DNA of 64,000 nucleotides, from NCBI GenBank assembly GCA_964017155.1, contig OZ024854.1, forward strand, positions 19,122,555 to 19,186,554. The letters run 5' to 3'. The notes below the pieces were generated by a model. That model was not told where the DNA came from. It made no database searches and saw nothing but the letters and a program-made list of their open reading frames with translations. The position numbers and the translations under genes were made by a program. This stretch comes from Oasisia sp. SBJ-2009 (Eukaryota; Annelida; Polychaeta; Sabellida; Siboglinidae). This document shows positions 8,487 to 47,199 of this stretch, piece after piece; the first letter of the stretch is position 1, and every line of letters starts with the position of its first letter.

Positions 8487-9287
8487 TTAACAGTCCATAC
8501 TGACAATAGTTTTCTCATTAGGCCTAGGTGAATTTAGCTGACATTGCAGAGTGTCATAGCTGATTCCTGTACCAAGCCTGTTATTCAGTGTGGTCAATAC
8601 TTTTCTCCGTGTCTGGTTGTACACATGGTATGCAGTGGCAATACCCAGAGGGGTAGCTGTTCCTGAAACATGTTGTATGAGTTGCTGGGACACTATAAGA
8701 TTTGTTTGGGGTTGGTTCATCAACTAGTATGAATCCTGAGCTGTGAGCCTCTTCTTCCCGCTGTCATAATCGTGTTTTCTTGCAGAGAAGCACTTTTCAG
8801 CAGCAGCTAATGATACCTCAGTTTTCTGTTCACGTTTTCTCTCTCTCTCTCTCTGTCTCTCTCTCTCTCTCCTGCACACATCAATTCTGTTCACGTCTTC
8901 TCTCTCTCTCCTGCACATATCAATATCTGTTCACGTCTTTTGTCTCTCTCTCCCCCACATATCAATGTCTGTTCACGTCTACCCACCTCTCACTCTCTCT
9001 CTCTCGCTCTCTACCTCTGTCTCTCTCTCCTGCACATATCAACATCTGTTCACGTCTTCTCTCTCTCTCTCTCTCTCTCTCACCCACATATCAATGTCTG
9101 TTCACGTCTCCCCACCTCTCACTCTCTCTCTCTCTCTCTCTCTCTCTCCTGCACATACCAACATCTGTTCACGTCTTCTCTCTGTCTCTCTCTCTCACCC
9201 ACATATCAATGTATGTTCAAATCTCCCCACCTCTCACTCTCTCTCCCTCTGTCTCTCTCTCCTGCACATATCAACATCTGTTCACGT

Positions 9288-15209: not shown

Positions 15210-15362
15210 CTAAACAGTCTGTTCATGTAATTTGTCTTCTTCAGGTGTGATTTTCTCGACAAGAGTGTTTCCGAGTTTCTCATTGAAGAAGTTGTGTTTT
15301 GCAATGTATCGGACACACTGTAGAATGACGTTGCGTTCATGTCGGATATCTCCTGCCAGCAA
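15210..15362 (-). CDS. NUFIP1: NUFIP1 exon 11, conserved C-terminus
   Basis: It follows acceptor gtcgacag, contributes 50 residues and ends at TAG. The GDIRHERNVILQCVRYI segment matches the C-terminal block of animal NUFIP1 (family knowledge; in human this end is reported to contact ZNHIT3). Confidence 0.93.
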   Translation of the reverse strand: MLAGDIRHERNVILQCVRYIAKHNFFNEKLGNTLVEKITPEEDKLHEQTV

Positions 15363-18300
15363 CTGTCGACAAGTTCACAACGTTAATGGATAACTACCAG
15401 AACATGCAGAAAGATGTTGTAAAACAACACAGTGCTTGAACATGTCAACGAATACACACTACATTGGCCTCACAGTACGTCAGTACGTATGCAGTAGTGG
15501 AATAATAATTTATTCTTTTATTATACGGTATCATGACCAGGTGGTAACAATGACTATTACACATACTTTTGGGTGTTGAAGAGCAACAATTCACAAGCCT
15601 GCATCTCAATGGAGGGAAGTGAATTTCCAGCACTAGTTTTACAGGAGCGTTTTTCAATGAACAAAGTTTGCCACTACAAACACAATTTCTACAAAATAAC
15701 AACCATTGTGTTTCAAAAATGCAAGTATCGTTTTAAAGATAATTCCACTCACCTTTTCAAGTAAAGTTTGTGTCTTTATGCGTTGTTTCTGTTGCTGCTG
15801 TTTTTGCCCTCGCTTATTACGTCTGTTAGACTTTGTAGATTTCTTCTGGATAGGAATGCCACATAACTTGTTTTCATTGTTCACTGTGCTTTCTGGTGGC
15901 TCTGCAAAAACATGCCATCATCATGCAAAATATACATAAAAAACAAACTACCTGTCAGCAGCAAGTGTGGTTATATATGCAATGTCATAAATAAACAACC
16001 ATAGCAGAATCAACTGACTCATACCCCTACGTGGTTCCCACGAGCAGGAACAGACACAGTATGGTGCAATGTGTTTATAGTTTTGTTTCTACTGTTCAGC
16101 TCCACAATATCTCATAAACCATAATAGCAACTGCGATATAAACATATTTTCATCAACTTGTGGTCACCACATGTTTTGCACTACTTATAAGTGAAACAGT
16201 ATTGAAAACACAGGTTAGCAATATGGAGGTATGTAAAACTATGTATGCAATGTTTGAACTGAATGCTAAACGTAAGGGACACATACATGATTTACATATA
16301 TAACAACTTATATTTCTAAATAAAGAAGCGGGAATGACACAGTGTAGTAGCCACTCTAGTAGATACGTGGAAATACAATTCAATGAACTGTCACTGTTGG
16401 GCCTTGTCATTAGTGATGGATTGATAACATAATTAATTAATTAATAATTACTTGGTTCAATATGGCGAATGGTACATACTATAAATTATACATAGTATGG
16501 TACACTATGCTGTCTAATGTCTATGCATTTTTTATGATCCACAGGAAACGTATGATTATGTAACAGTGGCGCCATGCTGTGGGTTAGTGAGACAACGCCA
16601 TTGTTCGAGTTTTACCATCTGCATTTTTGTACATGCACTTTTCTGATGGAAGGGAATGCCACAATATACTGGATGATGATTAGATTAAATTAGTCTTTTT
16701 TTGTTCAATTTCTATTACATGTTTTACAAGAGTACAAAAGATTAAAAAGTATTGTCAGTTGGTGAAGTAACATACCATATGGAATAACGGTTTTGATTAT
16801 AAAATATTAAAAACCGGTTTCAAAACCATACGAAAATACTGGTTCAGTGATGTACCGGTATATGTACTGGAGTTAGGTGATTGCAAATTGTGTGAATTTT
16901 AAGGCACGTTTAATAAGTAGGAATTTGTTGTGCACATCAAACTATGGCTATGGTACCTGCAGATGTGGCGTCATCGTCATTGTCACTGCCGTAGGACGCA
17001 ACAATAGACCCTAGCGCATTGCAAGATGGTTGCGTGGAATCTGTAACATATGAAAGCCGTCGTACCTCCTGACAACAATGTCAAGTGATTTTCTTGCGTG
17101 TTTCACTACCAGATTATTCACTGGAGCTACTAATACATTTAGAAGTTGCAGTTACAGCAATTTTTAAGTTCGCAATTACAGAAATTTCTTTTATATAATA
17201 GATGTGCAATAATGTTGTTCTCCAAAGCACAACATTTACTGGCAGAAATCAATTCTGCAGTATGTAATCTAAAATGTTATTAAAAGAACCTAAACAAATC
17301 CTTCCGTTGCATTTCAATTTCAATAATACATCCAGCCATATTCAATGAAATGTTTTAAACAAATTGTTAGAAGACACACTAATCCATTTAACATGAAGAG
17401 ATCCATTCCACAAAAACATGCCAGTGCCATGGACAGCCGAACAGTACATACTGCAAAACCATAACGTTTGACAAATACACACAGAGTGTTCCTTGTATAT
17501 CTTAATCTTCATAGACATGTTCCCTATCAGGAACACTGATGAATACAACTATTCATATTGTAAATGTTACGTTGTGGAAAACAAGGGATTCGTCAGGTCA
17601 ATGTTTTTTCTTACCTTTCCTGTCACCAGCATGAGGTAGGTGGGACTCCAAGTGGTCAGTGTTTGGTTGACTGGACAACTGAAACAGAACACATTTGGTT
17701 CACTGGACGACTGAAACAGAACACATTTGGTTCACTGGACGACTGAAACAGAACACATTTGGTTCACTGGACGACTGCAACAGAACACATTTGGTTCACT
17801 GGACGACTGAAACAGAACACATTTGGTTCACTGGACGACTGAAACAGAACACATTTGGTTCACTGGACGACCGAAACAGAACACATTTGGTTCACTGGAC
17901 GACCGAAACAGAACACATTTGGTTCACTGGACGACTGAAACAGAACACATTTGGTTCACTGGACGACTGAAACAGAACACATTTGGTTCACTGGACGACT
18001 GAAACAGAACACATTTGGTTCACTGGACGACTGAAACAGAACACATTTGGTTCACTGGACGACTGAAACAGAACACATTTGGTTCACTGGACGACTGAAA
18101 CAGAACACATTTGGTTCACTGGACGACTGAAACAGAACACATTTGGTTCACTGGACGACTGAAACAGAACACATTTGGTTCACTGGACGACAGAAACAGA
18201 ACACATTTGATTCACTGGACGACAGAAACAGAACACATTTGATTCACTGGACGACTGAAACAGAACACATTTGGTTCACTGGACGACTTAAATAGAACAC

Positions 18301-21300
18301 ATTTGGTTGACTGGACGACTTAAATAGAACACATCTGGTTCACTGGACTAGTGAAACAGAACACATTTGGTTCACTGGACGACTGAAATGGAACACATTT
18401 GGTTCACTGGACGACTGAAATAGAACACATTTGGTTCACTGGATGACTGAAATAGAACACATTTGGTTGACTGGACGACTGAAATAGAACACATTTGGTT
18501 TGTGTTCTATTTCAGAATAGAACACATTTGGTTGACTGGACGACTGAAATAGAATACATTTGGTTCACTGAACGACTAAAATGGAACACATTTGGTTCGC
18601 TGGACGAGAATATAATAGAGTAGAACTTATTCTAAATGTGGCCGAACACCTATAGACAGTCAAACTATACTCACAGCTCAACATTGATTTAATCTAATGA
18701 TTATCCAATAGACGAATAACAACAAATTCGCTTGGTCACATAGTAATTCCTCTGTCCTCCTGAAAAGTAATTTACAAATGCTACTGGTAACCAATGGACA
18801 ACAAGAGATATAGATAATTTCAGTTGTCCATGCTGCAAATTGGTTGTTTGTCCCTCGTACCATCACTTGAAACAGATTCACCTGTGCCAAAGTTAATTCA
18901 CTGGTCCCAGACAAGCCACAATTGTGTACAGTGTATGTAGTCTCAGCTCATAAACATAACCTACGGTTCCAATTATCCATATCCATGATTTACATTTATA
19001 ACAGCTTACATTTATAAATAAAAAAGTGGGTATAACACTTGTTCAAGTTACGCTGTGTAGTAACACTGAGTGGGTTGAAAATGAATCGGTACCCTTCAGA
19101 GAAACAGGACATGGATATGAAGCATGCAGTGCCTATATATAATATATGCCTACATATAATATATACCATAAACATTTCTACCCTAACCCATGCAACACCG
19201 TGGGAATTCTCTACCCTGCTCCAGTAACTGTAATGGGATTAAAAGGGGTATTTAGGGCGAGGAGTGTCACAACTGCTGTACCTAAGAGAACATCCCCCCC
19301 TGTTACGCCCTCTCAGGGTTGTCACTCATGGAAGCTTTCAAAATTCCCTGACTTTTCCCTGACTCAAAGTTTCATTTTCCCTGACCATGCTGGCTGAATA
19401 ATCATGAACATTTATGCGCGATGTACATATAATTAGCAATTAACTATATTAAAATTGCCAAAAGATCAGTTATGGCATTATTACATCAGCCAACTGAAGA
19501 ACGTGTGGTATCCACATGTTTAACAGCATATGTTTGTGGTATGGACATTGTTCCACGCAATCGTTATGCGTAATGAATTCGAGTTACGCGTATGACATGA
19601 GGAAGTTAAATTTCCCTGACTTTCAAGGGATTTTCCTGTATTTCCCTGACTTTTCTCAAAATCTCAAATTTCCCTGACCCAGCACAAAATTCCCTGACTT
19701 TGAATTTCCCTGACTTTTCCCTGACCAGTGGCAACCATGCCTCTGTACTGAACATCCTCCTCTGTTACCCCCCTGTACTGACCTGGTGTGTGGGGTGTGT
19801 GGCGCCCTCTGACACATCTTCCTGTGGCTGCCAGCTCCCTACTGCCGGGGAGTCCTGTCTCCCTCCTCTGCTTCCCTGCCAGCCCCGGCCACGCCCTCTT
19901 CCTCGCCCCCGTCCACCCCGCATCCTCCTGCAACCAAACACATTACAACACACATGACATCGTAGCCTCAATCACCCAGGCTCCGTGAGGTCGTGGCACT
20001 TTTCAGCCCCTCAACTCTGCCTGGGGAATTAATGGGCTGGCGTTGTAACCACTGACCTATAAAAGTTATATAGAGGTCGGTGGTTGTAACCGTCAGGGCG
20101 GCCTTACCCCAGATTAGGGTACAGATGCTGATTGCCTCTAAGGCCAACTTTGAAATAAAATTAAAATAACGATATGCTTTTACAAGATAATGATATCATA
20201 TGAAAAGTATTCAACACTGAACTTACATTAACACAAAAGTAAATAAAAAATTGCAGTTGTTTATAAAATAGGAATTACGGCAGGATTAAGCAAAGTCACC
20301 AGACTCTCTTCTCAGTGTAGTTAGGCAGCTCACTGACAGTCGGTTAAGCGAGATTAATAACATCGTTGTGATTGTAATAAATATTTTAAACATGCAACAA
20401 TTTCTTCCTGTCCTGAGATTTTCGTTAGAACAAATTTGTTCGTACATGTGGTGTCACCTACTGGAAGGCGCGCTGAACTTGGAAGGTATCGTAGAGTGCT
20501 GTTTGCAAATATCAATCAACAGTTACGACACCATTACAAACATCTTACCGTGTGGTGTGAATTATTTGCGTATGTGATTACATTGTCGACAACACGTCAT
20601 CTGTTCCCGGGCACCCACACATTGTGTTCATTTACGTAAACTGCCGACCACTGTGGCCGGTCTGAATGTGACAGCGAAATGTATCCCAACAAAAGCAAGA
20701 AAATGAATTTGATAGTGAATACTGTGGGAAAGTGGAATGGCATATAAAGGGTTCAGATACTGACCCAAACTGTTTGGTGGTCAGCACCTCTCCCCTCTCC
20801 TCTCTAGCCTTCAGGTCAGCTTGCTTCTTCGCCATGTTGCTGGCCGTCGGGTAGTTCCTACAACGCCAACACTGGTCAACAGCAGGTATAAGCACAGTAT
20901 CCAGTCCTCAGGACCGTTCAAAGCGCTTTACACTTTACTCCACTAACAGACCTGTTCACTCAGACACTATCTCGGCTTCTCTGGAAAGCAGCCAGCCATA
21001 TGCTACAATTAATGCATGAAGGCTGCCCGTACACATATCCACCACTGTCTATAGCCAGGTACTCGTGTATACAGCTGAGTGAACTGGAGCAATGTAGAGT
21101 GCAAAAACTTGCCCAAGGTTTTAACAACGCAACACAAGATTCGAACCCGGGTTCTCGTAGTAGAGTCCAAAGTTCTACCCCTGAGCCATTGTGCTCTACA
21201 TGTGTGAACTAGTTTGCTCCAGACTGATGCCATGAGTACTGGAAGAGCCACAGGTGCCCCTGCCACCTTGGCATGTCCTCTTCAATCATCAACAAGAACT

Positions 21301-22534
21301 ACATACGAAATGTTTGATATTTTTGACACGTGTTATTTTCATGTTGCATGATATTGAATTTTTTATTAACATAAATATAAGCGAAATGATTTTTTCAGGT
21401 GTTAGATAACAAATAAAAAAGTACACAATAATATTAGTAATCAATATAATTATAATGTGATAACAGCCAGCTTAAATCAATCTATTACTAAACTAGGCTG
21501 CAAACAACAAAATGGCAATCATTACAACTCCATGCTGGCTTACTGATGACAGACGATGCATAATTGGAATATTTTGTTATTTGATCATACAGTTAATACC
21601 TGACCAACACCAACAAGTTCACGTTGTACAAAGAAAGTGTAAACAATCTGAGGACATGTCGTCGACTCGTGTCCCCATCAGTCACGTGACTTACCTCCGT
21701 CTGCTGGCTAACCAGTTGTCCACTTCCTCCTGTGACTCGAGCTTCCAGATTTGCTTGGCCAGTCCAGTGCGGTGTTGCTGCATGACAGATACCAACGACA
21801 GATGTAGAAGTGACACAGTGACAGTATACAGCATGACATCCCATCCATAAGACTCACTACGGTATTTTACATTTCACTCACTGGCAGAGCTGTTAGCCCT
21901 TAGGTGGTTTACCTCCAAAAAGCCCAAACTTGAATTAATGCAGGAGTTATCCTTTTCTCTAGAATTACCCCCTGTGTGGGATCCGTTACTTCCCTTGGCA
22001 GACACCAGACAGAAGGGACCACCGGCTATTAGTGTCTCTTCCGAAAGACACAGACAAATGTGGGGTGAACGAAACTGCCTAAGTTTTGAGACGGCGGTAG
22101 GTGGGATTGAACCACCGTCCCCTCGATTGACAGTCCGTCAGTCCGTCAGCGCTCTACCACACGACCACCGCTACCCACTACTTGGACACCATTTTGATTT
22201 CTCTGGGAAAATTCAGCCATACTGCAACTAATGCATAAAGAATACTCATTCGCTCAAAAATATCCACCACCTCATTCATACAGCTAAGTGGACCACAGCA
22301 AAGTGGTATGAACAAACTTGCAAAATGATTAAAATGACAGCACGATGATTTACACTGAGACTCTCCAGACTAACAGTAAGAGCCAATGCTCTGAGCCTCG
22401 TACCACGATGACACTACATCGTACTTGAACACAGGGAGCTGCAGATAGCCAGGTTAGCAACTCATGTGTCCTGCAGCCTGCAGGTGTCTATATACTACAT
22501 AACTGATGGACTGATGGACTGATTGACTGACTGA

Positions 22535-22591
<57 letters not shown>

Positions 22592-25500
22592 TGACTGGCT
22601 GACTGACTGGCTGACTGACACGCAGGTGTACTTTTCTCTAGGAGGTTCATAGCCTCAATTACCCAGACTTCTTGAGGTGGCGGCACTTATCAGCCCTTCA
22701 ACTCCGCCTGGAATATTAATGGGCAGCCGATGTGACTGACAAGGCGGCCTTACCACAGATTAGGGTAGAGACGCTGATTGGTTCTCAGGCTCAATTTGAA
22801 CTAACAAATTAAATAAGAATACCTTTTTATCAAATAATGCTGTGTTATAAAAACCTTTCAAAACTAAACTTATGTTAGTGTAACAATAAATAGAAAAACA
22901 ATTTTGCAGTTGTTTATAAAATAGGAATTACGGCAGGATTAACTAGTATCCATGAGCATTGTATAGCCCCACATGGATAACATTGAAACATCGGTAAAGC
23001 CATCAGACTATCTTCTCGACAAAGTTACGCAGTCAAGCGAGTCGGTTAAGCGAGACTGTGAGGTTCAATGGACAGTCCTGCCAATATCACATGCACAAGG
23101 TCGTGTCGAGTTGCTGCTCAATGCCCCTCCATGGTTTATGGCATGACACGATATTTTGTGGGAGCAGTGACTGAAGTGAGAGAGCCCCCTATTGGTGTCC
23201 GACGAAACTGGGGCTAGAATCCAACCACAATGTTGACACTTTGGGGCTGCTTTGTTCAACCCTCACACTGCCTGTGTCTACAGAACTGATGCCTTCTCTT
23301 TTATGCGGTGCCTGTGCCAATTTAAGCAAAACATCCCACGTAGGGGGTAAATGTGTAGCAAAAGATTCCATGCAGAGATAAATATATTACTCTGTAGAGG
23401 ACACGTCAACTCTAGAGAAGGAAAACACAGAAACAACAAGTTCTACAATAAAGACGCGTGGCTAATGTTAATAGTGAGCCCAATTATATTATTAAAACCT
23501 TTTTTTTAACAAATACACTTTGCATGTTTTATGTACCCATTTCAATCTCTATGATTGCCCAGAACGAAATTAAACTATTATTATTACTAACCAACCACAA
23601 GAAGGATTGCATTAATCAGGACTGGACACTGCCCCAATAATAACAAATTATAATATTATTCATATCAAAGTGCAATAACAAAATTACAATATTACCGGGT
23701 ATATCAAAATGCTGTATCATCACAGCACTTTTCCACTCCACTATCATAAATATCTTGTAACAAGTACATTTTTCAAAAAATCACCTTGATTGTTTCCAAA
23801 ATATATTAGTAACTTCCCTGAAACAATGTGAAGCGACTGCAGCAGTGACTCAACTTACCAGATTGTAATGCATTGCGACAAGTTTGGGCGCAGCGACAAA
23901 GGGACACCCTTCAACTGAACACTGCAAGAACACAACCGGTGAAGATGAAGCACACCACACTTGAACACAGCTTACATACCCTGGATGTGCCTTTCTGATC
24001 AGAATCCAAAATAAAACAATCAACAGCAGAACTCCCAGTCTCAACATGTATAAAATGAGGTCACCAGAACTGGAATTGATCCTTCGCAAATACACACAAA
24101 TTGGAATTCAATTGAAATTGATCAATGTGAATTGAACACAGTGGTTTCTAGGTATTTCCTTGATAAAGTTTTCTTATTGCAATTTATTTATGCCGATGTA
24201 AAAGACACATTCCTTGTGTTTTAGCTCTAGAATTTCTGTTTAATAAATTTTAGGATTGGCTATATCTAACAAATTAGCACACGCTTTACAATATTTCTAT
24301 AGGTTGGAAGTTGTCAAAATTAACATGTGTGCAAAATGCATTGACACGTATTGTTTACCTGCTCGTGGTCTTGGACATGTTCTGTGTATTTGTCTTCTGT
24401 CTTGAAGCCACGGTCACACGTGTCGCAGAAGAAGGCGTTGTTCTCAGGTAACTCTCGCTTGTCTACAAACGGCTTCTTCTTTTTCTATGGAATCACATCG
24501 TCACATACAGTCATATGTTATTGCGTCCCTCCTGTGTCCAGACACAGGCACCCACGATATGACAGTCCCACAACTACAGGCACACACAGTCACACATGTG
24601 CACACACCAGTCCAACTGGCAGTGTGTTGAGAAAATGCAGGGAAAGGAAAATAACTGCCCAGTAAGGGGTTGTAGGTGGAGAGAAGGAAGATCAGAATAA
24701 GATTGGTAGCATTAAACTTAATGTGCAATGCTTGAACGACCACTGGTACTTACCATTTAGACGATATGTGACCATGATTTTATGAACACAGAGCCACGTT
24801 TTTTTTAACTTTTGTCTCGTTGACCACTGGGCGCTGCCATATTATGCTCAAGTTGCATTTGGTTTGAATAGTTCAATGTAAAAAAAAAATTATTTTACAA
24901 TAGATATTTCTGTGCGAAAACAAGAATATGTTGTCATATTATATATGCCATATGGTAGCCATTAATTTATACAGATCAACAAATCATTAGTGTTCAGGCC
25001 CCATTTAACCCTTTACACCTTGAACAGCCTGCAGTGGGATGCTCGTTTTCGTTAGAGCAGCAGCAGACTTTGTTTAACTTTGATGTGTGGAGGTGGTGCC
25101 ATCTTCTGGATACTTGTGTAACTGGTGTACAGGATTCTTTCAAGTTAGGCGTCTTTTTCATGACGGCTTTGCATTAGAAATTGTTGAATGTGCACTGTTT
25201 AAAAATATTTACTGATGCAGGCTTCATAGATACAGATAGTTATAAACTTATATAAGGATTATGAATATGGAGAGTGAATATGACACATGGAGACAGCTTG
25301 CTGAGAGGATGGCATAAATGAAGTAACACGGTCACTCCCGATATTAACCCAAAATGATTTAACAGATTAGTGTTAAGGCAAGAGTGACCACTGAGAAATT
25401 CACTAACTGCCCCCACCTAGGAACCTCTGATAGTAGTCGAGATGACAACAGCTCGATAACTTTGATGTAACCTTTTATTTTAGGATGACACTACAACGAC

Positions 25501-28015
25501 ATTAAACAGTAAACAAATGCGTCATTTCTGTGTCTTAACATGATATAATCCCATGTGGTACTTCACACGTGGCCCTCACTGTAGATTGGCACACCCTTTA
25601 AGGTTCCCGCCTTTTTTTTCTGGGCCTCCCTCACAAGTGTGTTAAGTGTTAATCCTTCTCACCCAGAACCTAAACACACGAACCAAGGTGTGTATAACTG
25701 ACAGCGCTTTGTACGCCAGGCGACGAGACCTTTCTTTCATCCTTTTACCTTTTACATTATTTGTGACATTAAAACTAAAATCTGTAGCACTGACACAAGA
25801 AATCCACAGTGTTACGCAGTGTCAGCCACCTAATAGAGAGCAGTAGCTACCGAGTATTCCCACAGAGCAGGGTTGGCGTTTAACCCGGGTTAAATTGGTT
25901 TTGCCCAGGTTAAACCCCAAGTAATATCCATCTTAAATGCGAACAACTTGAACATACCAGTTCAGACCTTAATGGTTTTACAGGAAGTCAAAAATAAAAC
26001 AGATTTTTATCAGTGTGCCATAGCCATAAGTTACATGTGGTTCTCACACTGGTCACTGCAGTCAATTACTGGCTGAGTCTTCTTCTGAAGATCTGCAGTG
26101 AGTCGAGTCAGATAACCTACATGAGAGTCTGGTGTCAGCCTACAGGTTATCTAACAGGGGTATGTAGAGCCTTGGCCATTGGCAGGTGGTAATCTACCCT
26201 GTCAGCAGGGTGTTTGTGTTATTTTTTATGACACACTGTCGCTGAGGAGTTAAAATTCAAACTGTACCCACGCTTGTCATCCATGATGTGTGACTGGTTA
26301 ATGTATGATCAATGATAAGAATAATTAAAAAAATTCATCTAACAAAAATGGTATGAAATCATGGAGACCCTGACAGTTCCCCACCCTCTCACCTGACAGT
26401 GGCCCAGTTCCCAACCCTCTCACCTGACAGTGGCCCAGTGGCCCACCCTCTCACCTGACAGTGGCCCAGTTCCCCACCCTCTCACCTGACAGTGGCCCAG
26501 TTCCTCACCCTCTCACCTGACAGTGGCCCAGTTCCCCACCCTCTCACCTGACAATGGCCCAGTTCCTCATCCTCCCACCTGACAGTGGCCCAGTTCCCCA
26601 TCCTCTCACCTGACAATGGCCCAGTTCCTCACCCTCTCACCTGACAGTGGCCCAGTTCCCCACCCTCTCACCTGACAATGGCCCAGTTCCTCATCCTCCC
26701 ACTTGACAGTGGCCCAATTCCCCACCCTCTCACCTGACAGTGGCCCAGTTCCCCACCCTCTCACCTGACAGTGGCCCAGTTCCCCACTCTCTCACCTGAC
26801 AGTGGCCCAGTTCCCCACCCTCTCACCTGACAGTGGCCCAGTTCCCCACCCTCTCACCTGACAGTGGCCCAGTTCCCCACCCTCTCACCTGACAGTGGCC
26901 CAGATTCCCACCCTCTCACCTGGGAGTTGTTGCCCGGATGTTTCCGCTTCATTGAACCTTGGAAGTGGTTCCCAGGACCAGCAAAGTTTGGAAGGGGATT
27001 GTGTGACATCTGGAAGCCAGGCGGAGGGGGGCGATTTGACATCTGGTGTCCTGGAGGGGGTCCATGCCATGGAGGTCCCCCACAGGGACCAGGACCCATC
27101 GGGGGACCACCCTGGGACCATGGCATTCTTATGCCCGGTCCTGGTGGAGGAATGTTGGGTCTCCAATATGGTCCTGAAACAAAACAGGTATTTAAAAAAG
27201 TGACTGTAAAAAAGTAAAGGCAAGTTCTTATATAGCACAGTATCCTTCTCTACTACGCTGCAATTAATGTGCGAAGCGTGCTCGTACACATATCCAACAC
27301 TTGTCTATGAACTGGAGCAATGAAGAGTGAAAAAACTTGCCCAAGGTTTGTAACACCACAGCATAGGATTCGAACCCAGGTTCTCTTAGTCGAGAGTCCG
27401 AAGCTCTACCCCTGGGCCACTGCGCTCTACTGTTAACAAATTGTATGAATATTTATTGCAAATGTAATAAAAGGTTAACAGAAATTGCTGACATTGTGTG
27501 TACATAGAATGATATATATTATTAATGCTGTGTCGCTTAAATTGATACTGTAATTTCGGGGTACGTGACATGAGTTTTTACCGGCCTTGCACAGACTTAT
27601 ATAATGAAACCAGGAGACCTGTTTTTTCATAAAATGATGTGTCGTTGTTGAGTGCAGTGACAGAGTTGTTACTACACGGTACTTTCAATTTCAATCAATG
27701 TCTTTTACTTTTGACTGTCGTTGACGTTGACGTCTTCGGAAGTTTGGTTTGACAGATCGCATGACAAATTAAAGACGTAATATGTGTTGACTGAATGTTC
27801 GCCTGAACGTTGAGTACAATGGGTGAAATGTAAAGCGCTTGTGAACTAGTTCTCCCCTCTAGTCAAACCAAGGATAACACATGCTTACCTCGTCCTGGAT
27901 GCCGTGCAGGACCGGGTGGTCCCCAACCCATTGACGGTGGGCCTCCGTAGCCCGGCGGTGGACCTAGCGGGTCTTGTGGCGGGGGACGACAGCCGTAATG
28001 AGGCGGCTGATACAT
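15210..28015 (-). CDS. NUFIP1: NUFIP1, nuclear FMRP-interacting protein 1 (box C/D snoRNP assembly factor), 11 exons
   Basis: Exons in transcript order: 28015-27889, 27173-26920, 24484-24359, 23921-23859, 21777-21695, 20857-20765, 19927-19783, 17678-17615, 17040-16957, 15901-15753, 15362-15210. All junctions are GT-AG and in phase; the coding length is 1341 nt (446 aa, against about 495 in human). Seen: a Pro/Gly-rich N-terminus (1-120), KRKHPG before exon 3, a C2H2 finger (C147, C150, H163, H167), a second CxxxxC...HxxxxH (C170, C175, H187, H192), then the family block with NYPT and RGEVLTT, an RGRGRGRG stretch, the motif LGSIVASYGS, and a C-terminus with GDIRHERNVILQCVRYI. Known for the family: NUFIP1 (yeast Rsa1) holds SNU13 and bridges to R2TP and ZNHIT3 during box C/D snoRNP assembly in the nucleus. 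Exon 8 is the least certain because its acceptor is embedded in a tandem array; an extra exon in intron 7 cannot be excluded. Confidence 0.9.
17661..18606 (-). repeat. 32-bp minisatellite spanning the NUFIP1 exon 8 acceptor
   Basis: About 28 units. On the minus strand each reads tgttctgtttcag and then about 17 nt resembling the start of exon 8 (exon TTGTCCAGTCAACCAAA, unit TCGTCCAGTGAACCAAA). Units farthest from the exon are the most diverged. One unit pair near 18479-18515 is inverted. Use of a distal acceptor reaches a stop or shifts frame, because the period is not a multiple of three. Confidence 0.92.
19312..19738. mobile_element. hAT-like MITE in NUFIP1 intron 7
   Basis: Ends resemble each other when inverted (AGGGTTGTCACT at left, ATGGTTGCCACT from the right). 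Both ends carry many copies of TTCCCTGAC. Flanks gccctct and gcctctg suggest an imperfect duplication. No coding capacity. Confidence 0.5.
19962..20353. repeat. Dispersed about 390-bp repeat, copy 1 (NUFIP1 intron 6)
   Basis: Shares with 22.65-23.05 kb the blocks tagcctcaat-y-acccag, gcggccttaccccagattag, ttgtttataaaataggaatt and cggttaagcgaga in the same order and spacing. Confidence 0.7.
20997..21210 (-). mobile_element. SINE-2 copy, NUFIP1 intron 5
   Basis: tRNA-like head at 21210-21130 on the minus strand with B box GGTTCGAATC. The body is shared with the copy at 27.2 kb (cttgcccaaggttt, aactggagcaatg, caattaatg). Confidence 0.7.
21941..22178 (-). mobile_element. SINE-1 copy (tRNA-headed), NUFIP1 intron 4
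   Basis: Minus-strand head has an A-box-like TGGTCGTGTGGTAGAGCG and a B box GGTTCAATCCC. The body contains ccggtggtcccttct, shared with copies at 29.5 and 39.9 kb. The tail end is tctagagaaaagg. Confidence 0.7.
22213..22420 (-). mobile_element. Degenerate SINE-2 copy
   Basis: Shares ctgcaactaatgcat, atatccaccac and acagctaagtg with the intact SINE-2 copies but is strongly diverged. It abuts the SINE-1 copy. Confidence 0.45.
22503..22622. repeat. Tetranucleotide array (GACT)n (GGCT)n
   Basis: About 29 four-base units of two alternating types in NUFIP1 intron 4. Confidence 0.95.
22648..23055. repeat. Dispersed about 400-bp repeat, copy 2 (NUFIP1 intron 4)
   Basis: Second copy, about 75-80 percent alike by eye, with an extra insertion (tatccatgagcattgtatag region). 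Confidence 0.7.
23859..24484 (-). CDS. NUFIP1: NUFIP1 exons 3 and 4, zinc-finger pair
   Basis: Exon 3 (24484-24359, 42 codons) starts with a Lys run and encodes CDTC-x12-H-x3-H. Exon 4 (23921-23859, 21 codons) encodes CSVEGC...H and continues to a second His in exon 5. Both are phase 0 on both sides. This pair of fingers ahead of the NYPT block is what identified the gene. Confidence 0.92.
26377..26925 (-). repeat. 31-bp minisatellite spanning the NUFIP1 exon 2 donor
   Basis: The real donor is CAG|gtgaga with the last exon base at 26920. The same CAG|gtgagaggg recurs every 31 bp to 26393, exactly 17 periods, giving 18 donor-like sites. A few copies are weakened (gtggga). Read-through of the first units gives about 21 codons and then a stop. 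Confidence 0.93.
27212..27430 (-). mobile_element. SINE-2 copy, NUFIP1 intron 1
   Basis: Head reads gcagtggcccaggggtagag with B box GGTTCGAATCC; the tail reads ctgtgctatataagaacttg and ends about 40 bp before the exon 2 acceptor, in the same orientation as the gene. Confidence 0.75.
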
Positions 28016-28495
28016 CACTTTCCAAAATGTACGACTAGAATAGATATGTACTAAAGTATTGCGGGTTCGGTCGGTGCACGACTATACCACTGTCACTACC
28101 GAATAAATACGAGTCAAACAACAGCGATCCAAACTAGACCAGTGATCAAAACACGCACACCACAAACGCACATGTTCTAATGACGTCAATATTACCGATA
28201 ATACCCGTTCAAAGCCGACCGAATCGCCAGCAATATCATCTTGAACTAACGACCACATATACACGCGATTGTTCACGCAGTTTAATTTTACAATGCTATT
28301 TTATATTATACAGCCATTTAATCAGTTCCAATAATATGTAATACGCTGACATGTGTTGTTTTGTTTTGGTGCCCTTCGGCAATTGACTTTGTCACCGCGA
28401 CGCGCGTTCTCCAGCGGGTGGCAGCGAATGTTGTGTCTATAGAAGTTATAGTATTAGGAATCCGTAGTATTTTGTATGTTGACAGTAATCTCATA
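28016..28495. promoter_or_regulatory. Probable bidirectional NUFIP1/ACAA1 promoter with CRE
   Basis: The two genes diverge from this 480-bp interval. A perfect palindromic CRE, TGACGTCA, lies at 28181-28188. No TATA box stands out at a useful distance from either ATG. Transcription start sites are not visible from sequence, so the 5' UTR boundaries are unknown. Confidence 0.6.
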
Positions 28496-30063
28496 ATGGA
28501 CGCGACGGCAGAAAGAATCATGCGTGGAGCAGCATTCAACGATGTTGTAATTGTATCAGCTTTGAGAACGCCAATTTGCAAGGCACGCAGAGGCGGCCTC
28601 AAGGTAGCTTGTACTAGTAGTTGTAGTGGCCTAGACTAGTGGGGTCACTGTCATTATTGTCAATATTGACTGATCGCCTTGGTTGATTGATTGGGGGTCA
28701 GAGTACATTAAAAAAAAATTTCCGCGTGGCTGTTTTAAGTGATGGCTAGGAATGCTTGAATTAATTCGCCATGGATGATGGTTCCAAGTACTTGTATAAT
28801 CTGGACATTGTCATTGATTTGGCTGCTGCATTTTATTTTACTTTTACTAGTTTTAGGACTTTTATCTAAAGTTTTTGAATAAAATATTTATTATGTTTTT
28901 AGTAGGAACACAACCCATGCACCTTTAACAATATAAATAATTTTAGCAAATACTTGAACCAGCTCAAATATTGACAACTATTGATAGCTATAATAACGGC
29001 CTATATATTTAATATTATAGTAATAGTATGTAGACATACTGTAAAAAGTGTTTTAGGTTGGGGGTTGGGATTTTACATTGAATTTTATATAATAACATAG
29101 TTTTCTTGTAGGATACCTTACCTGATGATCTCCTCACGTGTGTGTTTAAAGCTGTTCTCAGAGATACAGGAATTGCACCGTCAATGATTCAAGACATTTG
29201 CATTGGTTTGTATCAGTAATTTAATTTTGCTAATTGGATGGCACACAGCGCCATCTGAATTTATCCAGAGCACACTGCGTTCTGCTGTTCATATAGCTGT
29301 ACATAGTCCAATGTCGAGATTAACTTGATTCCCCTGCCTCTTTCGTTGACTTTTTTGTCCTTCTAAATCTAAGCATGGCGTCACCAGCCATGAAAGTTAT
29401 TTTAACAAGGTTTTTTGTAGCACTATAGGCTGACTTCGATTGAGCTATACAAATACCTGAATAAAGCAGACCTGTACCACTCGAACAGGAATTATCCTTC
29501 TCTCTAGAATTAGTGAGTCTACTACAGGTTACACATTTACCATTGTGGGATTTTTTACTTCCCCTGGCATAAAAACTAGGTAGAAGGGACCACCGGCTTT
29601 TAGTGTCTCTTGCAAGACACAGGCAAATGTGGGGTGAACAAAATTGTCTGTGGTTTGAAATGGTGCATGCAGGTGAGATTGAACCACCGTCCCCTCGATT
29701 GACAGTCCAGTGCTCTACCGTGCGACCATCGCTCCCCAACAGTGTCAAGATTGTAGTAGTCCCACTCATCTTTCAGTTTTCTAAATAATTTCTTGTTTAC
29801 AGGCAATGTACTACAGCCTGGTGCCGGAGCTTCGATAGGACGAATTGCTCAGTTTTTCAGGTGAGTGTCACAACTGTGATGCGGCAGTAATCATGACTTT
29901 TCTAGAAAGGATTAACTAGTTAAACAAATATTTATTAGATCAGGTTATGTGCTACTGTAAAGGGATATGTAAGAAACAAAATAAAAATATGACGGACAGT
30001 CCAAAAGTATGCTTACAAAACATTATTGAGTATCTGTGTCAAATTTTAACAAAAGATAAACAT

Positions 30064-30105
<42 letters not shown>

Positions 30106-33100
30106 TATTCCATGCGGCACGCATACCCTTTTATATTCTACAATGTAGTCACAGTTGAGGCATTTTTATGACATTGTCCAGACTAGTTTTTAGATTCCTT
30201 CATTGTAGAATTCAGTGCCCAGCAAATTCAACCCATTCTTTGCTGTCGAGTGGCCATCTTTAATTAACAGCTGTCACCACCCAGGTGTAGCACAGTGCTG
30301 TTATCTGATACAAAGTTTTAAATCAAATATATGTAATTACTCTCCAATCAAATCCAACCAATCTAGTCTCAGTTTCAATGATGTTATGTGTGCCTTGTGA
30401 ACTTATTTTTGGACTGCCCTCGCATGTTCAACTGTCGTTGGCCTATGACTGTGTTGTGTTATTTTAGGGGCATCCAAGAATTCTACTGTATACATTTAAC
30501 AGAACATGTCATATGTTGTTCCAGTGGCATTCCAGAGAGTGTTCCCCTCTACACCACTTGCAGAATGTGTTCATCAGGTCTACAGGCTGTCGTAAACATT
30601 GCACGTAAGTCTGCGTCACACTTACTAGTTATTCATGGTCTGAGTTGAACCCACTAACTAAACAAAAGATGGCATATGCGATACATAAAATCATATCTCA
30701 TTAGTTTTTATAATGAAGCACAACAAACTTCTAAATATTTCTTTAGATGGTTGTATATAATATACATTAAATTGGTATTTCCATTTTAAGGTCACTGTAC
30801 ATTAACAAAATCTTCTTTACATTTCTCAGGTGATAACGAAAGCTGGAGCCCGAGTTTTCTCTGTTGCCACACCAACTGTGAAATTCATTTCCCGCCCGTA
30901 TTAAATTAGAAGGAAGTACAGTTTAATTGCGCTGTCGTCTAAAAGCCTATCTCTTTAAAGCTGCTTACCTTCCTTAGATTCCCAGCACATTCACCCATCC
31001 ATTGACGACTCACACATTGTTATACAGTTACAAGATTATTTAATCCCTTGGTTTTGTCGGGCTACTGAGCTCGATCTTCGAGTATATTTGCGCATAAGAA
31101 ATCATCATCATTATTATTATACATATTCACTTTCACTATCCACCCCATGACACTGTGGAATGCACAACATTGAAATTGTATTACTCTGTAATCAATCCAA
31201 TATTGTTAGAAAAATCACATGTTATTTCTCTCATTATATCAATGCTTGTGCATGTATTTTCAGAAAGTATTCAGACTGGCATGATAGACCTTGGTTTAGC
31301 AGCCGGGTGAGTCATTTCTTTCTTACAAGTAACATGTTATGCACCAGTCGTTATCAATGAGTTCAATGTGTACTTTTACCCGAAGAAATAAATGTTAAGA
31401 CTATTGTGTTTGTAAACAGATTGTACAGAAAATATAAATACAGAAAATGTGGCACATAGGAAGGCACAATTACTTGAACAATTAACGGCGTGATTGTGAG
31501 GTGACACACACACACACCTAGTGGTTCTTGTTTGTCAGGAAACAATGCATCTGATTGGTCAATGACACTCAGGATCTGATGATTATTTGCTCGTACAAAC
31601 ATGCCTTTACTTATTGTGTTTGGTTTGATCCTGAAGAACAAGGCAGTATACTATGAAATCATAATGATTCATTGTACGTAAATATATTATGTGCCACCCT
31701 GGACTTTTGACTGGACTTTCGCAACATTTTAAATATCTTAGGCTATATTTATAATGTACATAAATGCATGGTCATCATATCTTAACTGTGTGTTTCTCTA
31801 ATCTACAATAAATGTAACCGAGAGATTGATTTGATTGTGGAGTTGTCTGAGAGTTATTTGACTGATTGTGTCCGTGTTTTGCAGTGTGGAATCTCACACA
31901 CTCAATGCCCTCGAAGTTGTTCCCCCGGGGTTTGTGGTGAACCCTAAAGTGGGAGAGAACAAGCTAGCCATGGACACCCTCCTACCCATGGGGTAAGTGC
32001 AGGATGTGTTTGTCCAGCTCTTATAGTCACGTGTTCCAACAAAAGGTACATGAATTTCTAGTTTTATATAACACAGAAAAATGTATTACAAAGTTAATAA
32101 AAAAATAAACAGTATTTTTGTTATTGTAGTATGATTTACTTACTTTGGAGCATTTTTATCGAAGTGAGTACGACGTTTCGGTTCGTCAGCTAAATAGACA
32201 AAAATGCTCCAAAGTAAGTAAATCATACTACAATAAACCATTCTTGGAGCCACGAACAATATATTTACTATAGTATTTTTGTTGCAATGCTCCTTTTTGG
32301 TCAGTCTCTTGTGTGAAATACACATATGAAGTGTATTGTGTCTGTGTGTAACGCTCCTCTTTTTCTTGTCAATCTCTTATATGAAATGCATTTCTGAATT
32401 GTATTGTGTCTGTATGTGCATACAAATGTAAAAATGATATCTACAAAATTACACCTATCCATGGTTATAACAGAAGGTTGAGTTCTTGTTGATAATTTTC
32501 TCTTTAATTTAGGCATCCTTACAGGTATCCCTGAAGTTAACGTAATACAGTTTTGGACTAAACCGGCAATAGTAAAACTGCATGAAATTTCTCCTTCATG
32601 TTCGGATTGACTTGATTTGTGTTATTTCCTTTAAGAGCATCTCGTGTTGTTATATTTATTAGCTTCCTCCAACTCTTCCAGTATCACATCAGAGAATGTG
32701 GCCGAGCGCTACGGCATCACGCGGGTACAACAGGACAAGATGGCGGTCGAATCACATGCAAAGTAAACTATCATGTCAAAAATACTCACAGTTAGTTCAC
32801 CTGTAAACAGTGAAGTTACATCAAAAAGAAATACCACTCGTTTAGAAATTGTCAATGTAATGTTTTGGCAGCTTTTCTTCTTGATTTGTTTATCTGTCTG
32901 GATTCACAGTTGACATGTTATATATAATTTTGAGGTGAAGTCACCAGTTATAATATACTGTATTTAGGATTGTTCCAAAGACTATTTCACCAAAACTGTG
33001 GCTAAACTGAAGTATATCATGGCCTATGGAGTGGCTTCGTAACTATGATACATGTCCAATTTATCCGATTTAACTATGTGATATAGTTTACACAGATTTA

Positions 33101-36100
33101 GAAGACAGATTAATTTAATAACATGCATTGCATCATAATGACAGGTGCTCTTGCCAGGTATCAACAATGAGCTTTCATCGTGTTATAGTGGTGTTTGTTT
33201 TGACAGGGCTGTAAGAGCTCAGAGGAATGGCTATTTCAAGGATGAAATTGTACCGGTGAAAACAAAGATTACGGACAAGGATGGAAACGAAAGGAGCATC
33301 ACTGTAAGTTGTCTCTACACTGAGCATTTTCAGTGCTGTTGCAACATTGTCAGTACTGTTGCAACATTGTCAGTACTGTTGCAACATTGTCAGTACTGTT
33401 GCAACATTGTCAGTACTGTTGCAACATTGTCAGTACTGTTGCAACATTGTCAGTACTGTTGCAACATTGTCAGTACTGTTGCAACATTGTCAGTACTGTT
33501 GCAACATTGTCAGTACTGTTGCAACATTGTCAGTACTGTGCAACATTGTCAGTACTGTTGCAACATTGTCAGTACTGTTGCAACATTGTCAGTACTGTTG
33601 CAACATTGTCAGTACTGTGCAACATTGTCAGTACTGTGCAACAATTGTCAGTACTGTTGCAACATTGTCAGTACTGTACAGCAATTGTCAGTACTGTTGC
33701 AAAATTGTCAGTACTGTTGCAACAATTGTCAGTACTGTGCAACATTGTCAGTACTGTGCAACAATTTCAGTACTGTTGCAACAATTGTCAGTACTGTGCA
33801 ACAATTGTCAGTACTGTTCAACAATTGTCAGTACTGTACAACAATTGTCAGTACTGTTGCAACATTGTCAGTACTGTACAGCAATTGTCAGTACTGTTGC
33901 AAAATTGTCAGTACTGTTGCAACAATTGTCAGTACTGTTGCAACATTGTCAGTACTGTGCAACAATTGTCAGTACTGTTGCAACATTGTCAGTACTGTTC
34001 AACAATTGTCAGTACTGTTGCAACAATTGTCAGTACTGTGCAACATTGTCAGTACTGTGCAACATTGTCAGTACTGTGCAACAATTGTCAGTACTGTGCA
34101 ACAATTGTCAGTACTGTTCAACAATTGTCAGTACTGTTCAACAATTGTCAGTACTGTGCAACAATTGTCAGTACTGTGCAACAATTGTCAGTACTGTGCA
34201 ACAATTGTCAGTACTGTGCAACAATTGTCAGTACTGTTGCAACATGTACTGTCAGTACTGTTGCAATATTGTCAGTGATGTTGCCACATTGTCAGTGACT
34301 TTGACTTTTTCTCAAAGCATTTATTGTTTAATTTCATTCCAGAAGTGTGATTGTAAGACCAAATGTGTGCACTGTCCTTGTTGTCATCAGGTGACGGTTG
34401 ACGACGGCGTCCGACCAGGGACCAATATGGAGACTCTGAGTAGGCTGAAACCTGCCTTCAAACCGGGCGGCTCCACTACAGCAGGTAGACACTGGCCCTG
34501 TCTCGGTGGCACAAACAGGACACATACTAGTGTCTGCTAATGCTTAACACAAAACACTTAATATCTATTTTCTACAAACTGTTTTTTATTTATTTGCTAT
34601 ATCTCTTTGAAACATGCAGTATGTATATTAGTATTTATTATATTTATTTATTGCTGTATACAGCAATAAATATTTTTCTGTTTTAATGTTTATAAATTTC
34701 GTACTGCTGTCTGTGTGTGACCTGTTTTTCCATTTCTCTCCTGGTGTGTCCCACTTCCTTTCTTTCTCCTTCTGTGTCTCTGCCAGGTGTTCCTTGGCCT
34801 GCCTCGTCACCCTTCCCTAGGGGGTTCCATGCGATAGCTTAACGGGCGATGTTGACTTTCACCTTCCTCGGGCCTATTCTCAAACAAGTTTGACACTTTG
34901 TTTTTAATTTTCGATGTATAGATTCCATATTTGTCGTGTCAAATGTAAATGATACACATTGTAGAATTCATTTCAATGACTTCTTTCAGATAATGCGTAC
35001 ATTTCCTATGGTATCTCATAAGAAAGTATGCTGATTCCTGCTAAAATAGCTAACAGGTATAGGACATTACAAGTTGATGTGTTGTTACTGTTGCAGGTAA
35101 CGCGAGTCAGGTATAGGACACTACAAGTTGATGTGATGTTACTGTTGCAGGTAACACGAGTCAGGTATAGGACACTACAAGTTGATGTGATGTTACTGTT
35201 GCAGGTAACACGAGTCAGGTATAGGACACTACAAGTTGATGTGATGTTACTGTTGCAGGTAACACGATACAGGTATAGGACACTACAAGTTGATGTGATG
35301 TTACTGTTGCAGGTAACGCGATACAGGTATAGGACACTACAAGTTGATGTGATGTTACTGTTGCAGGTAACACGATACAGGTATAGGACACTACAAGTTG
35401 ATGTGATGTTACTGTTGCAGGTAACACGAGTCAGGTATAGGACACTACAAGTTGATGTGATGTTACTGTTGCAGGTAACACGAGTCAGGTATAGGACACT
35501 ACAAGTTGATGTGATGTTACTGTTGCAGGTAACACGATACAGGTATAGGACACTACAAGTTGATGTGATGTTACTGTTGCAGGTAACGCGATACAGGTAT
35601 AGGACACTACAAGTTGATGTGATGTTACTGTTGCAGGTAACACGATACAGGTATAGGACACTACAAGTTAATGTGATGTTACTGTTGCAGGTAACACGAT
35701 ACAGGTATAGGACACTACAAGTTGATGTGATGTTACTGTTGCAGGTAACACGATACAGGTATAGGACACTACAAGTTGATGTGATGTTACTGTTGCAGGT
35801 AACACGATACAGGTATAGGACACTACAAGTTGATGTGATGTTACTGTTGCAGGTAACACGATACAGGTATAGGACACTACAAGTTGATGTGATGTTACTG
35901 TTGCAGGTAACACGAGTCAGGTATAGGACACTACAAGTTGATGTGATGTTACTGTTGCAGGTAACGCGATACAGGTATAGGACACTACAAGTTGATGTGA
36001 TGTTACTGTTGCAGGTAACACGATACAGGTATAGGACACTACAAGTTGATGTGATGTTACTGTTGCAGGTAACACGATACAGGTATAGGACACTACAAGT

Positions 36101-38573
36101 TGATGTGTTGTTACTGTTGCAGGTAACACGATACAGGTATAGGACACTACAAGTTGATGTGATGTTACTGTTGCAGGTAACACGATACAGGTATAGGACA
36201 CTACAAGTTGATGTGATGTTACTGTTGCAGGTAACACGAGTCAGGTATAGGACACTACAAGTTGATGTGATGTTACTGTTGCAGGTAACGCGATACAGGT
36301 ATAGGACACTACAAGTTGATGTGATGTTACTGTTGCAGGTAACACGATACAGGTATAGGACACTACAAGTTGATGTGATGTTACTGTTGCAGGTAACACG
36401 AGTCAGGTATACGACACTACAAGTTGATGTGATGTTACTGTTGCAGGTAACATGAGTCAGGTATAGGACATTACAAGTTGATGTGATGTTACTGTTGCAG
36501 GTAACGCGATACAGGTATAGGACACTACAAGTTGATGTGCTGTTACTGTTGCAGGTAACACGAGTCAGGTATAGGACACTACAAGTTGATGTGCTGTTAC
36601 TGTTGCAGGTAACACGAGTCAGGTATAGGACACTACAAGTTGATGTGCTGTTACTGTTGCAGGTAACGCGAGTCAGGTAAGTGACGGGGCAGCGGCAGTG
36701 ATCGTGACCCGGCGGGCCACGGCCGCTGCTCTGGGGCTGCCAGTTCTAGGGGCACTCAAGAGCTATGCCGTGGTCGGGGTGCCGCCCAACGTCATGGGCA
36801 TTGGACCAGCCTTTGCAATCCCAGTCGCCCTCCACAGGGCAGGTGAGATGAGCCTGGGACCATGGGTCCATAATGTGTGTGTGGGCATGTGTACATGAGT
36901 GGGTGGGTGTGTTGAGTTGTTTGTGTGGTTATGTGATCGAGTGTGTGTATACAATTCAAGCTTTATAAAGAATGTATAAATTCCATAAACTTACAATTAG
37001 CAAACTATGTTACAGGTTACTACAGCTTCTAAAGGAGTGCTGAATATTCTGTAGAACAAATAGGCACAAAATATTCATATAGAATAACTTATAGTCATCT
37101 GGTGTTATAGAACGTTATAGATTCTATGAAAATATAATTTAAAATGCTGTGGTGATGTGTTGGCCATCTCAAATGTAATTGTTTTATACACAAAGATAAC
37201 ATGGCAACCAGGTTTATTACCCATAGTAGCTGAAAATTAAACATTAATGTTAACTGAAACAGTTAAATTGGACATAAAACATGTAAGTTGTAACAATATT
37301 AAAGTGACACTGAATTGGACAATGCATGCTCTGTCAGTCACGAGGTTTCAATAGTTTTCATCAAATGTAGTTTCGTATATGATGTTAATGGTATGAGACC
37401 AAGTGTCGTTTCCACTGCAGGTCTGGGGATATCTGACATTGACATTTTCGAGCTGAACGAGGCGTTTGCCAGTCAGGCGACGTATTGTGTAGAGAAGCTG
37501 GGAATTCCATATGAGAAGTTGAATCCTAAAGGTGGCGCCATCGCTCTCGGTCACCCGGTTGGTTGCACCGGTGCTCGCCAGGTGGGGACACTGCTGCACG
37601 AGTTGAAACGTCGAGGAAAACGGTAAGAACGCGAACGAACAGGAAGTGTTACGTGTGTCGCACATGTAGAGCCACTGTGCAGTTGTTATACAGTAGACAC
37701 AGAAGAGAAAACATAACGGTAATCGTTGTTTTTTTCGATCATTGTTTATTTTATAAATTTTTGAAGCTCTACACATACTGGAGATCCCAATTGTACACAT
37801 GATATTGTATTGTATCTTTTGCCCTGTTTTTTATAATTATTTTAATCATGTTTAAATTTTTTCATGATCTATTTATTAATTTTTATTGCCCACTTTTTTA
37901 TTCATTTACTTGTACCCTGTAATTGCTCTAATTGTATTTTATGTATTTTAACTTTTGTAATTGTATTTTATGTATACATGTCCGAAATGAACATTACACA
38001 TTACATTATTAAGGTTATTATTATGGCTTTAGTGTAATATGTCATTCTTATCTACCTGTATCACAGAATGTTAATTTTATCACACCATATCCTTTGTCAT
38101 TATTAACACATACTAATTAATGATCATATTGGCTTTATGTGTTACCAAATGATGTAGTGTGATAGAACGAACATTTTGGAGTTGATGCAATTTTGCAAGA
38201 AAGACATAAAGTGGTAGTGATTTGGACCAAAGGAGTTGAGGAGAACTATTTACAGATATTACTGTACAACATAGTCAAAATATTACATACCGTACTGGGA
38301 CATCTAGCGAGATTTCAGCGTCAAGCAACCTTTATGAGATGTGAGAGTCAATATGATTGTAAGATGAAGGTCACATACGTAATTAATAACAGTTGTTCAT
38401 TGGCTAATAATCACGATCAGATTGGACTCCGCGAGGCGTGTTTTCATCGTTGATATCTGTTATTTTTTCTCACTGAAATCAACTATTTTAAATACATTGT
38501 TTGCAACAATTGAATGACGTTAGTGTTGACAAATATAGTAATGAATCTATGGCTATTGCACTTTAGATTTTAA

Positions 38574-46671: not shown

Positions 46672-46762
46672 CTCTCTGTGTTTTTATAATAGAGCACACT
46701 GAATACCTTAATTCACGCTGCGGTCGATAAGAAATCAATGAGCCCAAGTTGATGACCATTGT
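46672..46762. repeat. 91-bp module, copy 1, inside the 24-bp array
   Basis: Identical over 91 bp to 48230-48320. The array unit resumes directly after it. Confidence 0.95.
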
Positions 46763-47199
46763 ATACTCCGACGTGTCTCTAACAGTGCCCCCTCAACAAG
46801 TGTACGTCTTCCGAACGCACGAGGCCAGCCTCAAAACCCCTTCGCAATATCCACAAAATTCCGAAGTTTGTGGAATGAATTTTACTTCGTTACACGTACA
46901 ACTGAACACATGCGTGCTGCCATAAAGGCGGCCTAATGAGACATTAACAAGATGAAAGTGCAACTGAGGAGACCCCATTGTTAGGCTAACCATCGCGTGC
47001 TGCCGTCACAGCCTGGCGGCGACGACTTTGTCCTCAAGTATTGGAAATTGTCGACAGCTGTCTGCAAATGTACAGAACGGCGAAGTCGATATCCACAACA
47101 GATAGACATCTAGATGTTAAATATTTGGACAATCAAATGTGGGTATGGACAGTTAAATGTGGATATCCCTTTAACAGCGTAGCATAAATGTCAAAATAA

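Follow-up and report, generated by a model that had tools for sequence, protein, structure and literature searches.

Minisatellites across splice sites of two neighbouring genes

Why should three unrelated minisatellites in two adjacent genes each lie across a splice site? The question is raised by a 64,000-nucleotide (nt) stretch of contig OZ024854.1 (positions 19,122,555 to 19,186,554; hereafter the window), in which a NUFIP1-like gene and an ACAA1-like gene for a peroxisomal 3-ketoacyl-CoA thiolase carry the three arrays. We propose that these are probably exon-seeded minisatellites, generated at the DNA level by a process active in many genes and biased towards exon edges. The proposal draws in part on an excess of array boundaries beside exon edges that were placed by protein homology at loci outside the window.

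The initial annotation of the window had described units of 31, 32 and 54 bp, each embracing a splice site. This description was borne out by our gene models and by Tandem Repeats Finder, from which the coordinates, periods and copy numbers of the arrays were taken. The arrays, the exons they touch and the two genes are listed below.

17662-18607, minus strand: 32-bp minisatellite, 29.5 copies, 93% match; contains the acceptor of NUFIP1 exon 8 and the first 17 exon nt
17615..17678, minus strand: NUFIP1 exon 8, first exon base 17678; placed by open frame, phase and splice consensus only
26374-26922, minus strand: 31-bp minisatellite, 17.7 copies, 93% match; contains the donor of NUFIP1 exon 2 and the last 3 exon nt (CAG/GTGAGA, the slash marking the splice site here and below)
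26920..27173, minus strand: NUFIP1 exon 2, last exon base 26920; placed by alignment with a Lamellibrachia protein
35053-36679, plus strand: 54-bp minisatellite, 30.1 copies, 97% match; contains the acceptor of ACAA1 exon 10 and the first 17 exon nt
36663..36842, plus strand: ACAA1 exon 10, first exon base 36663; placed by alignment with a Ridgeia protein
33325-34296, plus strand: 20-bp minisatellite, 48.5 copies; starts 21 nt past the donor of ACAA1 exon 8 and ends 94 nt before the acceptor of exon 9
15239..28015, minus strand: NUFIP1-like gene (Pfam NUFIP1, PF10453); 11 exons modelled, last donor not defined
28496..37622, plus strand: peroxisomal 3-ketoacyl-CoA thiolase (ACAA1-like) gene (Pfam Thiolase_N/Thiolase_C); 11 exons modelled, last exon(s) not included

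The name ACAA1 derives from the Pfam domains and from the names carried by matching database proteins. Its product aligned without gaps to the Ridgeia protein over 374 residues, the array-bearing exon 10 joint included. NUFIP1 exons 1-6 aligned with the Lamellibrachia protein, and exon 8 lies outside that protein. The Lamellibrachia protein is longer by two residues (PQ) exactly at the NUFIP1 exon 2/3 joint (26919/26920), where the donor carries the 31-bp array; a 6-nt shift of the edge in one of the lineages would fit this.

These proteins also point to the host. Among the 120 matches listed for the ACAA1-like protein, the best was from Ridgeia piscesae (93% identical), with identities of 68% to Capitella and 65-66% to Branchiostoma. 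The NUFIP1-like protein was nearest to that of Lamellibrachia satsuma (67% identity across 58% of the query). Judged by its nearest proteins, the host is most likely a siboglinid (vestimentiferan) annelid and not an amphioxus.

The initial annotation had also considered chance placement of the arrays unlikely. For every one of the four arrays within genes, we dropped one founder unit at a random position into the collapsed NUFIP1 and ACAA1 genes (18327 nt, 44 exon edges), excluding placements wholly within an exon, in 200,000 draws. At least three units spanned an edge in 0.11% of the draws (P about 0.001), and all four lay within 40 nt of an edge in, again, 0.11%. Both figures agree with the earlier judgement, though they are post hoc, these very arrays having drawn attention to the window, and other loci were therefore needed. 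A further remark, that the two acceptor arrays take in nearly the same length of exon, was correct in that both contain 17 nt. However, this match looks coincidental, since the exon part ranges from 3 to about 62 nt in eleven spanning arrays.

Array boundaries near homology-placed exon edges

The assembly comprises 764 Mb in 33 contigs, and stretches sampled from it outside the window carry L-numbers (L002 onward). Array boundaries were counted as events, and the edge zone was set at 60 nt of exon plus the adjoining 40 nt of intron. Matches to PF00171 (13) and PF00063 (78) were left out of the junction counts.

One set of junctions came from a Pfam search of the whole genome. From its list of 127 exon matches to the kinesin motor we took one row in three (43 rows), and 26 of the first 28 were sampled with about 210 nt on each side; two overlapping neighbours were skipped and the other 15 rows were not included. 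Exons were called at 24 of the 26 loci (none at L040 and L043), giving 48 junctions, five of which had an array boundary in the edge zone.

L028: 85-bp unit with the donor inside it
L035: 127-bp unit with the acceptor inside it
L038: array starting 2 nt past the donor; exon bases CATGATGGGACA copied into the array, as read by eye
L036: TG-rich array 10 nt before the acceptor
L047: array 16 nt past the donor

The one far event was an array 115 nt from the donor at L032. The kinesin set thereby gave five edge events in 4455 nt and one far event in 8286 nt (P = 0.022).

TRRAP, in a stretch about 30 kb beyond the window (L011), was chosen before its arrays were known. Alignment to PDB TRRAP chains placed ten exons in two frames and found nothing in the third; the alignment behind the last exon is weak (2.6 bits). 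Edge arrays were found at 4 of the 20 junctions.

L011: 30-bp array spanning the donor after ...SLADLYKQ (exon 5546-5662)
L011: 54-bp array of 2.9 copies spanning the acceptor of exon 6263-6385
L011: two acceptors preceded by arrays, at distances of 3 and 6 nt

There were four edge events in 1689 nt and three far events in 6116 nt (P = 0.044). With a minimum of three copies, which drops the 54-bp array, 3 versus 2 remained (P = 0.068).

The kinesin (24 exons) and TRRAP (10 exons) sets together hold 68 junctions sampled without regard to arrays. When they were pooled, nine edge events in 6144 nt stood against four far events in 14402 nt (P = 0.0039), or 8 versus 3 if at least three copies were required (P = 0.0038). 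With the 22 exons of the window added, the counts were 13 edge events in 9832 nt and 5 far events in 31899 nt, a rate ratio of 8.4 (P = 1.7e-5). Edge arrays were present at 4/44 junctions in the window, 5/48 in the kinesin set and 4/20 in TRRAP. The first 40 nt of intron showed an excess on their own, with six events in 4024 nt versus five in 31899 nt when the window was included (P = 5.5e-4) and five in 2402 nt versus four in 14402 nt when it was not (P = 0.0045).

The initial annotation had offered two explanations for the arrays in the window. The first, a mechanism tied to splice junctions, gains from the excess at homology-placed exons, although the predicted-exon sets described below were mostly non-significant. 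The second, selection that spares arrays keeping the edge copy, falls short in that it leaves the enrichment of the first 40 nt of pure intron unexplained. Because this part of the intron is enriched, a bias of birth or of persistence at the edges is needed.

Chance combined with purifying selection would dispense with any such bias: minisatellites would be born anywhere, those that break exons would be lost, and some survivors would straddle junctions. The genome is indeed rich in minisatellites (10.8% of 125,566 readable bases, in 16 arrays, in L012-L025), many arrays lie far from any exon seen, and enrichment at predicted exons is weak. Against this stand the higher rate of array boundaries near homology-placed edges than deep in introns and the excess on the intron side alone, which lies beyond the reach of coding selection. 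Unit GC was alike in edge and other arrays (0.47 vs 0.46; 17 and 28 arrays), which also led us to reject GC as the cause of the edge preference. We consider the chance explanation unlikely.

Beyond the pooled count, edge arrays were seen beside protein-matched exons of a RING finger gene (L009), a myosin-XV-like gene (two arrays, L015) and an OATP gene (L016). In all, spanning arrays covered the acceptors of NUFIP1 exon 8, ACAA1 exon 10, L009, L035 and TRRAP 6263-6385, and the donors of NUFIP1 exon 2, L004, TRRAP 5546, L015, L028 and L038. Eight of them are beyond the window, including that at L004, whose exon is without homologue support. This last exon and NUFIP1 exon 8, which likewise has no homologue support, are what an artefact of assembly or gene modelling could appeal to, along with the difficulty of assembling tandem arrays; copy numbers, or the positions of arrays relative to exons, would then be wrong. 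The edges in ACAA1, NUFIP1 exon 2 (two residues apart), TRRAP, myosin and kinesin nevertheless agree with proteins of other animals, and separate loci carry separate units. An artefact therefore seems very unlikely to us.

Predicted exons and evidence against an edge preference

We also trained an exon caller on the window and ran it over L002-L025. Starting from the arrays, 6 of 33 were at predicted edges versus 1.43 expected (P = 0.0027). Starting from the exons, there were 11 edge and 16 far events (P = 0.015), a count that includes L018 twice through a wrong-strand exon call, which was removed in the reduced counts given below. By eye, eleven arrays were near exons in L002-L016. The caller misses genuine exons beside arrays (TRRAP 5546-5662 and 8704-9011, and the OATP exon in L016) and also yields false calls, and for this reason the predicted-exon set was weighted below the homology-placed sets. 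It points the same way as they do, mostly without significance.

Several observations weigh against a process that favours exon edges. In L012-L025 alone, 2 of 16 arrays were at predicted edges versus 0.59 expected (P = 0.12). When doubtful events were dropped, the exon-first counts became 9 versus 16 (P = 0.059) and then 7 versus 16 (P = 0.19). Retraining the caller with kinesin exons gave, at three cut-offs, 6 versus 14, 8 versus 16 and 6 versus 7 (P = 0.2, 0.11 and 0.032). By eye, at most 2 of 10 arrays were near exons in L018-L025. Most samples are small. TRRAP (C1:19.2 Mb) adjoins the window and is hence not a distant sample, and two of its three far events are distal faces of edge arrays. 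The data come from one haploid assembly, in which exon edges were placed from DNA and protein homology. Growth from the exon end would fit 9 of 14 arrays, short of significance (P = 0.058). Finally, the TRRAP and myosin donor arrays showed hardly any flanking repeat by eye, and slippage seeded by the splice consensus therefore cannot be the sole route to such arrays.

Origin of the repeat units

The unit of a spanning array is contiguous DNA of its gene: a few bases from the start or end of the exon together with the adjoining intron, multiplied on the intron side. The copy that adjoins the exon body still makes the coding edge, and units differ from gene to gene. As the unit joins an exon edge to adjoining intron, its template was DNA or unspliced RNA and not spliced RNA. 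The exon is most simply the ancestral copy, since the copied exon bases code for conserved protein (TRRAP ...SLADLYKQ, kinesin, myosin, RING finger). As far as the sequences tell, exon bases are the seed of the spanning arrays.

Mobile introner-like elements, which insert at or create introns, could likewise account for arrays located at introns of many genes. Introners are recognised as related copies dispersed at many introns, and this is not what was found for the 54-bp unit: a genome search gave seven matches, all within the array, and none beyond its own place (the counts are lower bounds). In addition, units hold the exon bases of their own host gene. This origin appears extremely improbable, even beside the other alternatives considered here.

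For the exon-seeded origin that we favour, the following course of events can be envisaged. A short tandem duplication would arise at a junction, probably where short direct repeats allow replication slippage or microhomology-mediated joining; in some cases the splice consensus (CAG/GTRAG, YAG/G) may readily supply such repeats. The motif CAGGTA, found at both ends of the 54-bp array, in the intron and in the exon, hints at slippage between short direct repeats derived from the splice consensus. The duplication would be tolerated since the splicing machinery would stay with the copy at the exon boundary: exon definition would hold that copy in use and further copies would fall into the intron, transcripts that use another copy being frameshifted or stopped. 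The array would later expand and contract as other minisatellites do. We also derived founder microhomology by hand from array length modulo period, which proved uninformative as indels blur it.

Splice motifs within the arrays

If the upstream neighbour of the ACAA1 edge copy were used, translation would stop after GNTSQV, and a 31- or 32-nt shift alters the reading frame. The edge copy must therefore normally be chosen, and we infer that it is the one actually used. The contiguous Ridgeia protein supports the exon model of ACAA1, not splicing in this animal.

The splice motif TTGCAGGTAA was kept in 30/30 units of the 54-bp array and CAGGTGAG in 16/18 units of the 31-bp array, and TTTCAG was present in 19/30 of the rows into which the 32-bp array was cut. 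In the 54-bp unit, the acceptor is directly followed by a donor-like start (TTGCAG/GTAAC), and a second donor-like sequence, CAG/GTATAG, lies 14 nt on, so that the unit could serve as a tiny exon or as a dual-specific site.

It is conceivable, then, that the arrays are retained for a role in splicing: they might offer decoys or alternative sites, or might regulate how introns are removed. Every 54-bp unit keeps the acceptor-GTAAC arrangement as well as the second donor-like sequence, and one Caenorhabditis elegans minisatellite is reported to be tied to multiple alternative splicing decisions (PMC4039745). Splice motifs of interior copies were nonetheless changed at L038 (by eye) and in 11/30 rows of the 32-bp array, at least five of which are without AG, and selection therefore does not preserve every copy. 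The stop that follows use of the neighbouring ACAA1 copy also speaks against such a role, and no sequence common to the units was seen. We regard retention for splicing as highly improbable.

Comparison with known systems

Tandem repeats across exon-intron boundaries, named mirages, have been described in amphioxus Adh3 and also in the globin genes BflGb6/BflGb9, troponin C and PGBD5 (PMC3087553, PMC3902484). In the covered parts of these and the other reports cited in this section, to which our comparisons are confined, mirages affect both 5' and 3' intron boundaries, many units carry AG/GT splice signals, regular splicing is undisturbed, and array length is unstable, somatically so at Adh3. 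The initial annotation had raised a link to mirages. In anatomy it holds: the repeats found here span boundaries, affect acceptors and donors alike, and carry the splice motif in many units (30/30, 16/18 and 19/30). The host, on the other hand, is an annelid by its nearest proteins, whereas the reported hosts are cephalochordates; we take the taxon as a circumstance and not as part of the defining anatomy. Unit lengths overlap (10-72 bp in Adh3), and copy numbers are in the tens here versus 6 and 3 units in two haplotypes of amphioxus BflGb6. Unlike the mirages described, some arrays here merely abut the junction, and an edge preference was measured. Splicing and instability were studied in amphioxus; the tubeworm arrays are likened to mirages by anatomy alone.

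Other systems share single features with these arrays. Internal tandem repeats in human segmental duplications are likewise minisatellites with units of about 30 bp at exon-intron boundaries, with 27 intron modifications among recent paralogues, often accompanied by alternative transcripts (PMC2812944). In contrast, the present arrays are in single genes, and every copy except the one at the edge appears to be intronic. Dual-specific splice sites, as in UBC, have an AGGT within the unit that could serve as a 5' or a 3' site (PMC10809524), similar to TTGCAG/GTAAC in the 54-bp unit; repeats of the UBC type are coding and their sites are used, whereas the 54-bp array has the motif, known from sequence alone. 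A splice site is also copied when introns are gained through tandem genomic duplication of exon sequence that contains AGGT (PMC4974935; the Rogers model, cited in PMC3087553), but the duplication here affects a junction already in place, and no gain of an intron was seen. In earthworm metallothionein genes, minisatellites are present in the first intron, with no link to exon edges in the text covered (PMC12783039). We found no report of annelid exon-edge minisatellites or of a genome-wide rate among the hits listed from the open-licence literature, judged by titles and the openings of abstracts. What is new is the phylum (annelid) and the measured edge preference, the anatomy being already known from mirages.

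The small samples of other genes suggest that exon-edge arrays are frequent in this genome. A broader proposal, which we hold to be evenly poised between true and false, is that exon edges are a general birthplace of minisatellites. About one in ten junctions (an extrapolation from 13/112 homology-placed junctions) would then have an array founded within tens of bases, with duplicated splice sites in the tens of thousands. On this view, a single mutational process tied to junctions would have given rise to amphioxus mirages and the present arrays independently, and both would constantly provide material from which splice sites could shift and new introns could form. Should the whole genome follow the sampled rate, a large part of the minisatellites in this lineage would owe their existence to splice junctions, as a side effect. 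Such a process would link the birth of repeats, the tolerance of dozens of duplicate splice sites and the raw material for intron change. A topic pursued gene by gene in the amphioxus reports would become countable, datable against sister tubeworms and testable for mechanism (slippage, transcription-linked breaks, or persistence through edge-copy selection). It also raises the question of how the spliceosome selects one among many near-identical sites.

Other observations on arrays

Open frames of at least 300 residues, present in 22 of the 127 kinesin exon matches, were tried as a sign of arrays, since they first suggested exons fused to stop-free arrays, and rejected, as matches with internal stops show the same large values and the figure therefore does not measure a stop-to-stop frame. 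A 37-bp array of at least 4.2 kb occupies L025 1-4233 and extends past the sampled stretch. Periods of 21 and 72 bp, both multiples of three, were found for the arrays at L018 7453-7568 and L012 8830-9160, respectively; the L018 array reads as coding S/T-rich repeats close to an exon end.

Within the window, the 32-bp array contains a partly inverted unit at about 18494-18520 (GTGTTCTATTCTGAAATAGAACACAAACC on the minus strand). Near-identical segments of about 85 nt (TGTGTTTTTATAATAGAGCACACTGAATACC...) lie in the right flanks of unrelated 26-bp and 35-bp arrays (about 46676-46763 and 48228-48320), and the segment adjoining these two arrays has evidently been duplicated. A pentanucleotide array, TTGGT x 138, lies at 48516-49205.

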